This document shows, piece after piece, positions 2,999 to 7,489 of a stretch of DNA of 64,000 bases (position 1 is its first letter; each line of letters begins with the position of its first letter). The notes beneath the pieces were generated by a model, which made no database searches, was not told the origin of the DNA, and saw nothing but the letters and a program-made list of their open reading frames with translations. Position numbers and translations under genes: made by a program. Source of the stretch: Candidatus Gastranaerophilales bacterium (GTDB lineage: Bacteria > Cyanobacteriota > Vampirovibrionia > Gastranaerophilales > Gastranaerophilaceae). Where the stretch lies: positions 1 through 64,000 of the forward strand of contig CALUTJ010000012.1 of NCBI GenBank assembly GCA_944323685.1, written 5' to 3'.

Positions 2999-4570
2999 TT
3001 ATTGTTTTTTGCTGTTTTCAACAATTTTGGCCATAACATCATTGAAAAATTTGTCGGGAGTCATACCGTCAACAACTTTGCAGTTTGCAAGTTCGTTGTT
3101 GCGAAGGTTATTTAATCTGACAGCAGCTTCTTCAACAGGCATTTTTTTGTATATGGAAAATATTTTACGGTCGTTAATTAAAATGTCATAGAAATAAGAC
3201 AAACCTGTTTTAACGTTGCCTTCCTGCTTCAAGCTTTCTCTGGCGTATGACTGTTCAAGGATATTAGCGGCTTGATGATATCTTTTATCACCTCTGCCTG
3301 CGGCATCTGCACAGAAAGAACCTGCAATATCTCTCATTTTGTCAAGATCAATATGCCCGTCTCTTGTGTTTTCGCCGATAATTCTGTCTACTTCTTCCTG
3401 ACTTGCTTTTTGAATTTTGTCAATTTTATCTATAACTTCCTTTTTTGTAACTTCTATTGCCGGTTTTGCTGTTACATTTGCAGCATCAGCAGCAGGTTTT
3501 GCTTCTGTTTTTGCCGGAGCAGGTTCTTGTTTGGCTGCATCAGTCTTTGCTGCATCAGCTTTAGGCGCATCGGCTTTAGGTGCCTGCTCTGCCGGTTTTG
3601 CTTCGGGTTGAGCTGCGGGAGCGTCTGTCTTCGGTGCATCTGTCTTTGGGGCATCTGCTTTTGGCGCGTCAGCTTTGGGAGCCTGCTCTGCCGGTTTTGC
3701 TTCAGGTTGAGCTGCGGGAGCGTCTGTCTTCGGTGCGTCAGCTTTGGGGGCATCGGCTTTTGGTACATCAGCTTTGGGAGCCTGCTCCGCCGGTTTTGCC
3801 TCAGGTTGAGCAGCGGGAGCGTCTGTTTTTGGCGCGTCAGCTTTAGAGGCGTCAGCTTTAGGAGCATCGGTTTTAGGTGCCTGCTCTGCCGGTTTTGCTT
3901 CCGGTTGAGCAGCGGGAGCGTCTGTCTTCGGTGCATCAGCTTTGGGGGCATCGGCTTTTGGTACATCAGCTTTGGGAGCCTGCTCCGCCGGTTTTGCCTC
4001 AGGTTGAGCAGCGGGAGCGTCTGTCTTCGGTGCATCAGCTTTAGGAGCATCAGCTTTTGGTGCGTCTGCCTTGGGGGCGTCGGCTTTCGGTGTTTCTACC
4101 TTTGCTGTTTCCGCTTTTGCTGCTGTTTCTTTAGCTTCGGTAGCTGCTTTATTTGCCGCAGCGGCTGCATCATTTTCTGCTGTTTTGGCTTCTTGTGCAG
4201 CTTTTTTACCCATATCAACAATTTCTTCTTTAGCTTCATTCAATGCATTTTTTGCATTTTTGCCTCTGCCTTTGACAAGGTAAATTCCTAATCCTGCAAG
4301 TACTACCGCACCTGCAACGTATGGCAGAGCTTTTTTAAAACTTTTTACGGATTTTTTTGAGGTATCTTCTTTAGCGGGTTGAGTTTGAGCCGCAGGAGCT
4401 GTTTGATAAATCTGGGCTGTTTGAGCTGCCGGAGCTGTCTGAGCAGCAGTCTGCGGAGTCTGAGCTGTGCCGGTTTTTGCAGCAGCGGAAGCAGCTGCTT
4501 TAGCCTGAGTTGCGGCAACCAAATTGCCTGTTTGAGGTAAAGACAATGTGCTGATTGACTTAATGTCCAT
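2999..4570 (-). CDS. Ala/Pro/Lys/Asp-rich repeat protein with one hydrophobic segment
   Basis: A 523-residue protein of unknown function. Residues 1-75 are Ala/Gln/Thr-rich and have no Sec signal peptide. Residues about 81-99 (ALPYVAGAVVLAGLGIYLV) are a probable membrane helix, followed by a basic stretch and an Ala/Lys/Glu-rich helix to about 160. Residues 183-347 are five tandem 33-residue repeats built on TDAPAAQPEAKPAEQAP and KADAPK units. Residues about 370-523 are a non-repetitive, probably helical C-terminal domain. The layout (membrane anchor, extended Pro/Lys spacer, folded end) recalls TolA/TonB-type spacers, but I see no homology to them. AAGGGAGA precedes the ATG. Long open frames on the opposite strand here are by-products of the repeats. 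Confidence 0.85.
   Translation of the reverse strand: MDIKSISTLSLPQTGNLVAATQAKAAASAAAKTGTAQTPQTAAQTAPAAQTAQIYQTAPAAQTQPAKEDTSKKSVKSFKKALPYVAGAVVLAGLGIYLVKGRGKNAKNALNEAKEEIVDMGKKAAQEAKTAENDAAAAANKAATEAKETAAKAETAKVETPKADAPKADAPKADAPKADAPKTDAPAAQPEAKPAEQAPKADVPKADAPKADAPKTDAPAAQPEAKPAEQAPKTDAPKADASKADAPKTDAPAAQPEAKPAEQAPKADVPKADAPKADAPKTDAPAAQPEAKPAEQAPKADAPKADAPKTDAPKTDAPAAQPEAKPAEQAPKADAPKADAAKTDAAKQEPAPAKTEAKPAADAANVTAKPAIEVTKKEVIDKIDKIQKASQEEVDRIIGENTRDGHIDLDKMRDIAGSFCADAAGRGDKRYHQAANILEQSYARESLKQEGNVKTGLSYFYDILINDRKIFSIYKKMPVEEAAVRLNNLRNNELANCKVVDGMTPDKFFNDVMAKIVENSKKQ
3530..4024 (-). repeat. Five tandem 99-bp coding repeats
   Basis: Five in-frame 33-codon repeats encoding TDAPAAQPEAKPAEQAP plus a 16-residue variable tail of KxDxP units. 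Units 1 and 3 encode identical 33-residue sequences; the others differ by a few substitutions (KTDAPKADAS in unit 2, KTDAAK in unit 5). The near identity suggests recent expansion or unequal recombination, so copy number probably varies between strains. Confidence 0.92.
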
Positions 4571-4753
4571 ATAAATCTCCCTTATTTGAATATGTTGTTA
4601 ACACAATATAATCTAAATTCAAACAAAATAATTTTTGCTATAAAACTTATTTATATTTTACAATTCATAACAATTACTAAAAAGCTTAAACATATTGCAT
4701 ATATCACGGATTCTCGGTATTATATATACTGTTAAAAATAATAAGGATAAAAG

Positions 4754-6634
4754 ATGTCATCAGACAGTAATAATACAGAATTTATAAACACTGCGGATAA
4801 TACACAAAACGAAACCATTTCAGTAAAATTTGAAAGCACGTCACACGAGGAGGTTGAAAACTCAAAATTTCAGGCAGTAATAAGAGCCTTAGCCGCAAAC
4901 GTCGGTATCGCTCTTGTAAAATTCATCTGCTTTTTATTCTCTTCAAGCTCCGCAATGCTTGCCGAAGCAATCCACTCGGGCGTGGATTCTTTTAACAGTA
5001 TTTGTCTGCTTGTAGGCATAAAAAGAGGCTCAAGGCCTGCTGACAACGTCCACCCCTTCGGCTACGGGCTGGAAGCAAATGTCTGGGCGATGTTCGCTTC
5101 CATATTGATGCTGGGCGGTACTTTTGTTGCTTTGTATCACGGGTTTGAAAAACTCGTCCATGCCGAAGACGCCGCAGAACTGCTTAAAAATTATCCTTAT
5201 ATAGCCATAGCGCTTATTTGCAGCATATGTTTTGAAGGCTGGGCTGTAATGAGCGCGTCTAAAGCAGTATTGCACGAGGTCGGTATTCAGGAAAAAAACG
5301 TTTTAAAAGAATTTTTTATCTCCGTCAAATATATAGGAAAAATCAAAAGCCCTACGACAAAGTTTGTATGGTACGAAGACACGGCTGCTTTTAGCGGTGT
5401 AATTGTGGCTTTTATTGCACTGACACTGTCTAAATTTGTCATGCCCGCCTCACTGGCGTATATTCCCGATGCTATTGCGTCTATAATAATCGGTACTATA
5501 CTGTTTTTCCTTGCTATTTATCTTTTGAAAAACAACGTCAGCAGTTTGACCGTTCAGGCGGCAGAGCCTAAGGTTGAAGAAAAAATCAGACAGGTAGCGT
5601 CTACAATCCACGGTATTACGGACGTTGTGGAGTTAAAAACGATTGATTTGGGCTCCTCGGGTGTAATTATCAATATGACAATCGAAGTCGACCCCGAAAC
5701 CCAGATGAAAGACGCCGACGATATTGCGGATATGCTGGAGCGCAAAATCAGAAAAGTTATAAAAAATATAGCTCATATAACGATAGAATTGCAGGCACAT
5801 GATGCCGAAGACAACTGGGAAGAGAAATTCCACAAATTAATTAAAGAAGGCGAAAAACTGGAAACTATAGACAGCCACGAGGCTCAGATGCTTTCCAACT
5901 TCTTTGGTTTTGCCAATACGGTTGTTAAAGAAATCATGATTCCGAGAACTGAAATCTCAATGATTAGTGTTGAGCAAAACATCAACGAACTCGCGGATTT
6001 AATTATCAATTCCGGCCACACACGCATCCCTGTTTACAGAGATAACGTTGATAACATAATCGGTGTTATAAACGCAAAAGATGTATTGAAAGTAATCAAA
6101 AACAACCATGTCGACGACAATTTCTCAATAGAATTGCTGGCAAGAGAGCTCTTAATCGTTCCTGAAAACAAATTCATCTCCGATATGCTCAGTGACTTTA
6201 TTGCTTCCAAAAACCAGATAGCCGCAGTAGTCGACGAACACGGCGGGGTTGCCGGTATTGTTACGATTGAAGATATTCTCGAAGAAATTGTCGGCGAAAT
6301 ATACGACGAGTTTGATAAAGTGGAAACACCCGAAGTAGTGAAAATAGACGACAACACTTTAAATGTTTCCTGCAAAATGGATATCGATGATATCAATGAA
6401 CGTTTTGATTTAGATATTCCTAACGAAGATTTCCAGACAATCGGCGGTTATGTTTTCGGCCTGTTAGGAAGAGAACCCGAACTTAACGATGTTATTGAGG
6501 ACAAAAATATTACCTATACAATTTTAGAAATCGACGGCAGAAGGATTTCGCGCATAAAAATGTATAAACAGACTCCTTTTGTTGACGCTAAAGACGTAAA
6601 AACCGAAGAGGAAGAAAAAAACTCAGACGGGTAA
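4754..6634 (+). CDS. CDF-family cation efflux transporter fused to a CBS pair and a CorC/HlyC domain
   Basis: A 626-residue protein with an unusual architecture. Residues about 38-262 are a cation diffusion facilitator membrane domain with H74-S-G-V-D78, H100-P-F-G-Y-G, D209 and D239 in the positions of CDF metal-site motifs. Residues about 270-350 match a CDF cytoplasmic domain. Residues about 385-515 are a CBS pair in the style of CNNM/CorC proteins (EIMIPRTE, GHTRIPVYRD, VVDEHGGVAGIVTIEDILEE). Residues about 525-610 are a CorC/HlyC domain (FQTIGGYVFGLLGR). Normally the CBS-CorC module follows a DUF21/CNNM membrane domain in Mg/Co efflux proteins; here a CDF pump takes that place. The likely role is nucleotide-gated export of a divalent metal. 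AAGGAT precedes the ATG; there is no sign of a frameshift or of two joined genes. Confidence 0.9.
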   Translation: MSSDSNNTEFINTADNTQNETISVKFESTSHEEVENSKFQAVIRALAANVGIALVKFICFLFSSSSAMLAEAIHSGVDSFNSICLLVGIKRGSRPADNVHPFGYGLEANVWAMFASILMLGGTFVALYHGFEKLVHAEDAAELLKNYPYIAIALICSICFEGWAVMSASKAVLHEVGIQEKNVLKEFFISVKYIGKIKSPTTKFVWYEDTAAFSGVIVAFIALTLSKFVMPASLAYIPDAIASIIIGTILFFLAIYLLKNNVSSLTVQAAEPKVEEKIRQVASTIHGITDVVELKTIDLGSSGVIINMTIEVDPETQMKDADDIADMLERKIRKVIKNIAHITIELQAHDAEDNWEEKFHKLIKEGEKLETIDSHEAQMLSNFFGFANTVVKEIMIPRTEISMISVEQNINELADLIINSGHTRIPVYRDNVDNIIGVINAKDVLKVIKNNHVDDNFSIELLARELLIVPENKFISDMLSDFIASKNQIAAVVDEHGGVAGIVTIEDILEEIVGEIYDEFDKVETPEVVKIDDNTLNVSCKMDIDDINERFDLDIPNEDFQTIGGYVFGLLGREPELNDVIEDKNITYTILEIDGRRISRIKMYKQTPFVDAKDVKTEEEEKNSDG

Positions 6635-6739
6635 CAAACATTTGTAACGAAATTGTAACATTGGCACTAATTTTGTCAAAAATAAAATCTCCGATAACTT
6701 TACATGAACAGAAGTGTAAGAAATAGGAGATTTTTTATT

Positions 6740-7489
6740 ATGCAAGTAGGTTCGGTAAATTCTAAAGTAACATCCGCCCAGCAGCAGCCGGTTAAAAAAA
6801 GCAATGCTAAACGCACCGCCGCATATATAGGCGCAGGTATCGGCACTGCCGCAGCCATTACGGGGGCAATTGTATACAGAAAAAATATTGCAAACGCTTT
6901 TAAAGCGTTTAAAGATATGCTCACACCTTTAAAAACAACAATTGGCGACAACATGTCAGATATCGGCGCTAAAGCTAAAGACAAAGCAGGTAAAGTTGCC
7001 CAAAAAGTTAAAAATACAGTTGACGACGGCGTAGAAGTATTAAAAGAGCAGGCAGCTAAAGGCAAAGAAAAACTCTCGGAAACCGCTGAAAAAGTTAAAG
7101 ATAAAGTCGATGACGGCGTTGATGCATTAAAAGATAAAGCCGCTAAAGGCAAAGAAAAACTCTCAGAAACCGCTGAAAAAGTTAAAGATAAAGTCGATGA
7201 CGGCGTTGATGCATTAAAAGAAAAAGCCGGACAGGTAAAAGACGAAGTTAAAGAAAAAATTGCTAACTCAGAAACCGCACAAAACATTAAAAATGAAGCC
7301 AAAAATATCTTCCAAAAAACAGGCGAGTTCTTTAAAAAAGGTTTTAATAAAACCGCAGGTTTTGTAAAAACAGCCTTCAACTGGGTTAAAGACAAAGTTG
7401 TAAACGCTTACAACCAAATCAAAACCTTCCTTGCCAATATGAAAAAAGAAGCAGCAGAACAGGTTGCGCAAAGCCCAAAACAAGCATAA
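6740..7489 (+). CDS. Lys/Ala/Asp-rich helical repeat protein with one hydrophobic segment
   Basis: A 249-residue protein of unknown function, taken from ATG 6740 (MQVGSVNSK) because AGGAGA lies just upstream; an in-frame start at 6704 lacks such support. Residues about 25-50 (AAYIGAGIGTAAAITGAIVY) are a probable membrane helix. Residues about 85-185 are amphipathic helical repeats of the type GKEKLSETAEKVKDKVDDGV, similar in texture to LEA, apolipoprotein or YtxH-like proteins. The C-terminus is Lys-rich and helical. The plan resembles the repeat protein at 2999-4570 (short N-terminus, one hydrophobic helix, charged repeats), although the repeat units differ. Confidence 0.8.
   Translation: MQVGSVNSKVTSAQQQPVKKSNAKRTAAYIGAGIGTAAAITGAIVYRKNIANAFKAFKDMLTPLKTTIGDNMSDIGAKAKDKAGKVAQKVKNTVDDGVEVLKEQAAKGKEKLSETAEKVKDKVDDGVDALKDKAAKGKEKLSETAEKVKDKVDDGVDALKEKAGQVKDEVKEKIANSETAQNIKNEAKNIFQKTGEFFKKGFNKTAGFVKTAFNWVKDKVVNAYNQIKTFLANMKKEAAEQVAQSPKQA
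7055..7228 (+). repeat. Two near-identical 87-bp coding repeats
   Basis: Two adjacent 29-codon units differ at only two positions that I can see (TCGG/TCAG near the start and GAT/GAA near the end). A third, more diverged unit precedes them. They encode the helical repeat of the preceding entry and look like a recent tandem duplication. Confidence 0.9.

Follow-up and report, generated by a model that had tools for sequence, protein, structure and literature searches.

Can the cytoplasmic module of one transporter family bring a metal pump of another family under nucleotide control? This question is raised by a gene in a 64,000-nucleotide stretch of DNA (the window) from a Candidatus Gastranaerophilales bacterium, which a first-pass annotation had described as a complete CDF transporter attached to the CBS-CorC/HlyC module. 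The organism belongs to the class Vampirovibrionia (Melainabacteria), non-photosynthetic relatives of cyanobacteria, and the organisms that carry the fusion occur in animal guts; a search of the literature returned no study of metal control in them. The annotation had also stated that the combination was not known as described, and this agrees with a corpus of 5.39 million open papers, in which queries for the two families together, for their Pfam names together and for CDF with CBS returned no description of it. A 2023 review places CBS domains on CNNM, MgtE, ABC and MFS transporters and reports metal sensing only for CDFs (PMC10710835). CDFs are known to be regulated by metal at their own C-terminal domain (CTD), and control by nucleotides through CBS domains is undescribed in the searchable papers.

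A CDF transporter and a CorB/CorC-type cytoplasmic part share one reading frame

The gene occupies positions 4754..6634 (+) as one uninterrupted frame of 626 codons (626 aa), preceded by AAGGA (4743-4747, +), a likely ribosome-binding site read directly 6 bases before the ATG; the N-terminal MSSDS is kept in homologues of the same genus. Pfam calls, all above the curated cut-offs, placed Cation_efflux (PF01545) at aa 43-265 (7.1e-32; 111.2 bits versus a cut-off of 26.6), ZT_dimer (PF16916) at aa 272-345 (1.8e-10), two stretches of CBS (PF00571, 1.8e-14; the best at 391-449) and CorC_HlyC (PF03471) at aa 530-606 (3.7e-20), and this order within a single frame bears out the proposed joining of a CDF to a CBS-CorC/HlyC module. 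The NCBIfam model of the CDF superfamily, TIGR01297, scored 141.4 (cut-off, 82.35), and the CorC-type NCBIfam models matched below their cut-offs. No CNNM (DUF21) membrane domain was found in the protein by Pfam; it is present in a separate gene, as the genome holds, besides its single fusion gene, one ordinary gene each for a CNNM and a CDF.

An AlphaFold2 model built with 51 sequences (mean pLDDT, 78; pTM, 0.43) comprises six transmembrane helices, the ZT_dimer domain, two helices of an acidic helical bundle (AHB; 355-368 and 374-387), the CBS pair and the CorC domain. On the plus strand, a disordered variable tail (aa 1-30, 4754..4843, pLDDT of ~28) is followed by the six-helix CDF membrane domain (aa 31-265, 4844..5548; TM1 31-63, TM2 66-92, TM3 105-136, TM4 147-176, TM5 200-228 and TM6 236-265), which is supported by PF01545, the model and a YiiP fold match. 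The CDF half ends with its C-terminal ZT_dimer domain (aa 272-345, 5567..5788; PF16916 and a fold match to the MamM CTD), and the junction of the halves lies at the AHB, which is of the CorB/CorC type according to model helices and profile alignment (aa 355-387, 5816..5914). Beyond it are the CBS pair (aa 391-520, 5924..6313; PF00571, conservation and the model of a relative, L054) and the CorC_HlyC transporter-associated domain (aa 528-606, 6335..6571; PF03471 and a fold match to 2r2z). The three characteristic stretches named in the first-pass annotation were found at 393-400 (EIMIPRTE), 496-515 (HGGVAGIVTIEDILEEIVGE) and 560-569 (FQTIGGYVFG). Its description of the module was right in the parts named and too short in extent, since the AHB ahead of the CBS pair also belongs to it, which means that the whole cytoplasmic part of a CorB/CorC transporter was taken over.

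Surroundings of the fusion gene

No Rfam element or riboswitch was found in the window, no metal- or nucleotide-linked gene adjoins the fusion gene, and the number of promoter-like sites (11, versus 6.7 expected by chance) is uninformative. Upstream, a gene at 2999-4570 (-) encodes a 523-aa protein with no Pfam match, which has an N-terminal hydrophobic helix and 2.6 copies of a 198-base unit forming a KADAPKADAPKTDAPAAQPEAKPAEQAP repeat array; it may be located at the surface or span the envelope. Just downstream, at 6704-7489 (+), a 261-aa protein contains an 87-base tandem repeat, translated as amphipathic KVKDKVDDGVDALKEKAAKGKEKLSETAE units, and has only sub-threshold apolipoprotein and YtxH-like matches. 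No gene neighborhood is conserved across orders. Two distant families of the class have the fusion gene near a gene that resembles flhA, of the flagellar export apparatus, by eye (L151, 925-3024; L152, 7194-9326), and no such neighbor was seen in the window's order.

The fusion is widespread in one class

After removal of duplicates, 64 distinct fusion proteins (36-95% identical) with the same architecture were collected, all of them in the class of the window organism. Full-length copies were present in 23/23 searched genomes of the genus (82-100% identity), in further genera and families of the order (~57-76%) and in three families of other orders of the class (39-44%); the nearest among the named relatives, labeled Candidatus Gastranaerophilales, is 84% identical to the window protein (L065), and another carrier is labeled Vampirovibrionales (L057). 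Since the join recurs in all of these genus genomes and in 64 distinct proteins, which come from numerous separate assemblies and have neither a stop nor a CNNM membrane domain between the parts, we rejected the possibility, raised by the first-pass annotation itself, that two neighboring genes were joined by an assembly or sequencing error. Nothing found speaks for such an error, to which we assign a negligible probability; one plasmid outside the class does have an adjoining CDF and CNNM, but as separate full-length genes.

That plasmid was the only record among 72,556 plasmids scanned in which both parts lie near each other. It comes from Azospirillum ramasamyi (NZ_CP029834.1; L209, 2405-5086) and carries a CDF gene and a full CNNM/hemolysin-family gene on the same strand, 400 bases apart, close to repA and parAB-type genes.

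In the samples and matches listed, no fusion was found outside the class. There was none in samples of four further GTDB phylum groups, whose loci were labeled Bacillota, Proteobacteria, Planctomycetota and Actinomycetota (249, 247, 149 and 198 genomes, respectively), and free-standing CDFs of the same branch were numerous in the last three of these; the Lentisphaerae-labeled sample had no CDF match at all and is uninformative on fusions there. In the sample from the organism's own phylum (244 genomes), fusions appeared only in the window's family, under a strict threshold that did not draw the more distant fusions of the class, and other groups had ordinary CNNMs. A scan of genome contigs gave at least 15 fusions among the matches listed, all labeled Gastranaerophilales or Vampirovibrionales except for one "uncultured bacterium."

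Several candidates were set aside. Long frames (up to 1251 aa) around CDFs in Planctomycetota- and Actinomycetota-labeled groups lacked CBS and CorC, their extra length being upstream of the CDF; a 589-aa frame (G253) from the organism's own phylum proved to be an ordinary CNNM; and an Elusimicrobia match spanning 1.7 kb (L133) consists of two ordinary CNNM genes in tandem. A CDF on the minus strand of a metagenome-assembled genome of a Bacillota group (L154, G515:C245) scored 279 bits, versus ~205 for other unfused relatives, and stops at residue 317 with the end of the contig. The rest of that genome yielded no CBS-CorC piece, and this CDF is unlikely to be a fusion.

Within the class, the fusion was absent from nearly complete genomes of several genera of the window's family (e.g., genus g6, family f1) and of family f6, and it was therefore lost or not kept everywhere. 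In these organisms, it is dispensable or has been replaced.

Both halves appear to have been inherited together under purifying selection

In a tree of the CDF part, 18/18 chosen fusions formed one clade (100/99) that joins free-standing CDFs with the same TM5 signature, and the branch separating 52 rows of this type (ED, see below) from nine standard CDFs reached 100/100. A tree of the CBS-CorC part likewise gathered all fusions into a single clade (100/98) distinct from the CNNM genes of the class itself, and both trees split the fusions alike into two groups, the window's order versus the others. That each half forms one clade fits one old fusion inherited as a unit, and the simplest account compatible with these sequence trees would be a single fusion in the ancestor of these orders, with joint inheritance since. 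The age and clade-wide spread of the fusion were missed in the first-pass annotation.

Within the genus, dN/dS was 0.013-0.020 in both halves, where computable, indicating strong purifying selection, and it did not exceed 0.025 where computable at the junction (aa 351-390). The N-terminal tail (aa 1-30) gave 0.11-0.40 where computable, and both tails of the protein evolve fast. These values bear on the reading that the CBS-CorC part is a passenger, acting elsewhere or vestigial, and without effect on the CDF. No result shows contact between the halves (pTM of the model, 0.43), which would agree with it, but the halves occur together in every complete locus of the clade found, and purifying selection is equal in both halves and the junction; we consider a passenger very improbable.

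The CDF half has the fold of YiiP and an atypical transport site

In the model, the membrane and ZT_dimer domains matched YiiP (5vrf) with a Z score of 21.9 over 282 residues (rmsd, 5.6) and human ZnTs about as well (Z, 21-22), and the ZT_dimer domain matched the MamM CTD (3w63) with an rmsd of 1.2 over 78 residues. The fusion thus shares its membrane and ZT_dimer fold with the Zn2+/H+ antiporter YiiP/FieF (CDF, TC 2.A.4), and it keeps the site A Asp of TM2, the Asp and His of site B and the Asp of TM5. In contrast to YiiP, it has Val for the TM5 His, Glu next to the Asp, no site C histidines and ~270 extra C-terminal residues made up of AHB, CBS pair and CorC domain.

All five residues singled out in the first-pass annotation (H74, D78, H100, D209 and D239) are present. 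At the site A positions of TM2 (4973..4987, +), which align with the HxxxD of free-standing CDFs, H74 and D78 are kept in 64/64 rows reaching the column; in the TM2-TM3 loop (5042..5053, +), D97 is kept in 64/64 and H100 in 62/64 rows of the fusion alignment. These two loop residues correspond to YiiP site B, whose third ligand position is Y104 in the window protein. The TM5 half of the transport site, E208 and D209 (5375..5380, +), was assigned by conservation and alignment with standard CDFs; V205, E208 and D209 are each found in 65/65 rows, and D239 is kept in every fusion reaching the column. D209 corresponds to the Asp of the HxxxD that is usual in TM5, and V205 stands at the His position (YiiP His153). 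The claim of a complete CDF accordingly holds for the fold, but the transport site is atypical: H74, D78 and D209 are present, and V205 and the invariant E208 deviate from the XX-HD of YiiP and most ZnTs. This quartet is not among the site A quartets found in passages of PMC5703985.

The ED pair of TM5 is common to the fusions and their free-standing bacterial relatives and therefore marks a branch and not the fusion. SLC30A9 (ZnT9) itself probably carries the ED signature in TM5; none of the PDB matches named was an SLC30A9 chain. Judging from the alignments, the CDF half belongs to an atypical CDF branch, a second point missed in the first-pass annotation. The free-standing ED-signature CDFs also share the HPFGYG loop with the fusions; after TM2, the fusions have NS whereas most of these relatives have NQ, and none of those examined carries the CBS-CorC module.

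A site A lacking the TM5 His of Zn-selective CDFs leaves the metal uncertain. The mitochondrial Zn2+ exporter SLC-30A9 of Caenorhabditis elegans carries H198, D202 and D221 at the same spacing as H74, D78 and D97 of the fusion; mutating H198/D202 or D221 impairs it, and it binds Zn2+, not Ca2+ or Mg2+ (PMC8901913). By this likeness, Zn2+ would be the likeliest substrate of the fused CDF, though not a safe assignment. That the fused transporter instead carries the substrate of the module's donor family, Mg2+ (or Co2+), appears quite unlikely to us. The module donors are Mg2+ exporters (PMC8242095), and the transport site has one His with several acids, versus the two-His Zn site; against this, free-standing relatives without the module share the atypical site, so that the site was unchanged by the fusion event, SLC-30A9 with its matching TM2 His/Asp and an Asp 19 residues on does not bind Mg2+ (PMC8901913), and the genome keeps a separate ordinary CNNM gene.

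The regulatory half has a conserved, predicted nucleotide pocket

The C-terminal zinc site of Shewanella YiiP (site C) consists of H234, H250 and H263, which align with V292, the Thr in IINMTIEV and D322 of the window protein. According to this alignment, the zinc-sensor histidines of a YiiP-type CTD are lost in the fusion.

The best PDB relative of the module by sequence was CorC 4hg0 (2.6e-66). The profile of the fused module aligned with 4hg0 across the CBS pair and the CorC domain (3.1e-65) and with MtCorB 7m1t from the AHB through the CBS pair, and the CorC domain of the window model superposed on 2r2z with an rmsd of 1.3 over 82 residues. The CNNM/CorB/CorC Mg2+ transporters (MtCorB, TpCorC) have the same complete cytoplasmic part of AHB, CBS pair and CorC domain, whereas the fusion has a CDF in place of their CNNM (DUF21) membrane domain. 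MgtE and the MFS and ABC transporters with CBS domains follow the same principle, the CBS pair serving as a plug-in nucleotide-sensing regulator (PMC10710835), but their membrane families are different and the CBS pair of the fusion comes with AHB and CorC domain, not alone.

ATP binding in MtCorB involves Thr207, Thr313 and Asp316 at the ribose and Ser234 and Arg235 at the phosphates, and the R235L variant, which models the ATP-free state, loses the CBS-pair dimer (PMC8242095). These five residues align, in that order, with I396, T504, D507, T423 and R424 of the fusion. T504 and D507 are invariant (65/65 rows), position 424 is Arg in 61/65 and Lys in 4/65 rows, and H422 is replaced by F or Y in four fusions; the predicted pocket consists of H422, T423, R424, T504 and D507. 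The ligand of a CBS pocket can be AMP, ADP, ATP or c-di-AMP. The conserved MtCorB contacts, together with superposition of the CBS pair of the L054 model on Mg-ATP-bound MtCorB 7msu (rmsd, 1.3 over 123 residues), suggest that the fusion CBS pair likely binds an adenine nucleotide.

Alternatively, the module could be only a scaffold that dimerizes or stabilizes the CDF, without nucleotide sensing, and the pocket residues could be kept for folding. CDFs act as dimers, CBS pairs dimerize, and the pocket varies in the few fusions noted above, all of which would suit a scaffold; the invariance of T504 and D507, whose counterparts contact the ribose in MtCorB (PMC8242095), does not, and a dimer contact is already supplied by the ZT_dimer domain. 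We regard a pure scaffold as rather unlikely.

A model for nucleotide-gated metal export

Moderately likely, and in our opinion the best explanation drawn from sequence and structure models, is that the protein is a homodimeric CDF exporter, probably of Zn2+, gated by an adenine nucleotide, be it Mg-ATP or another. A CDF would have gained at its C-terminus, in a single ancestor of the class, the entire cytoplasmic portion of a CNNM/CorB transporter. The resulting homodimeric antiporter would export a divalent transition metal, most likely Zn2+, out of the cytoplasm, with the CDF dimer holding two CBS pairs next to each other beneath the membrane. Mg-ATP, or a different adenine nucleotide, bound where the CBS pairs meet would then tighten or release the dimer, and the AHB and ZT_dimer domain would pass this movement on to the transmembrane helices and thereby set the transport rate. 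The nucleotide state would replace the zinc-sensing site C of the YiiP CTD.

Both borrowed parts are known regulatory devices, since Mg-ATP activates CNNM/CorB transport and metal binding to the CTD activates CDFs; CDFs are dimers whose CTD passes a metal signal to the membrane helices, and in CNNM/CorB, Mg-ATP between two CBS pairs sets the membrane domain (PMC10710835). Loss of the YiiP-type sensor alongside a conserved nucleotide pocket fits nucleotide gating, and the first-pass reading, in which nucleotide binding controls a metal exporter, can reasonably be drawn from the sequence. We infer the dimer, metal, direction, ligand and coupling of the fused transporter, and the explanation is weakest on how the halves are coupled (pTM, 0.43) and on the ligand. 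The more specific proposition, that a CDF exporter swapped its own CTD metal sensing for Mg-ATP gating through CBS-CorC so that export tracks the cell's energy or nucleotide state, has about an even chance of being correct.

Taken together, known parts stand here in a new, conserved combination that is probably functional, and its architecture suggests a metal pump under the control of cellular nucleotides, a prediction based on sequence and structure models. Within one branch, some CDFs have the module and others lack it, which constitutes a natural experiment. If the proposed gating is true, the same cytoplasmic module regulates two unrelated membrane transport folds, which would reveal the elements of CNNM regulation that can be transferred and help to clarify what role the CorC_HlyC domain plays.
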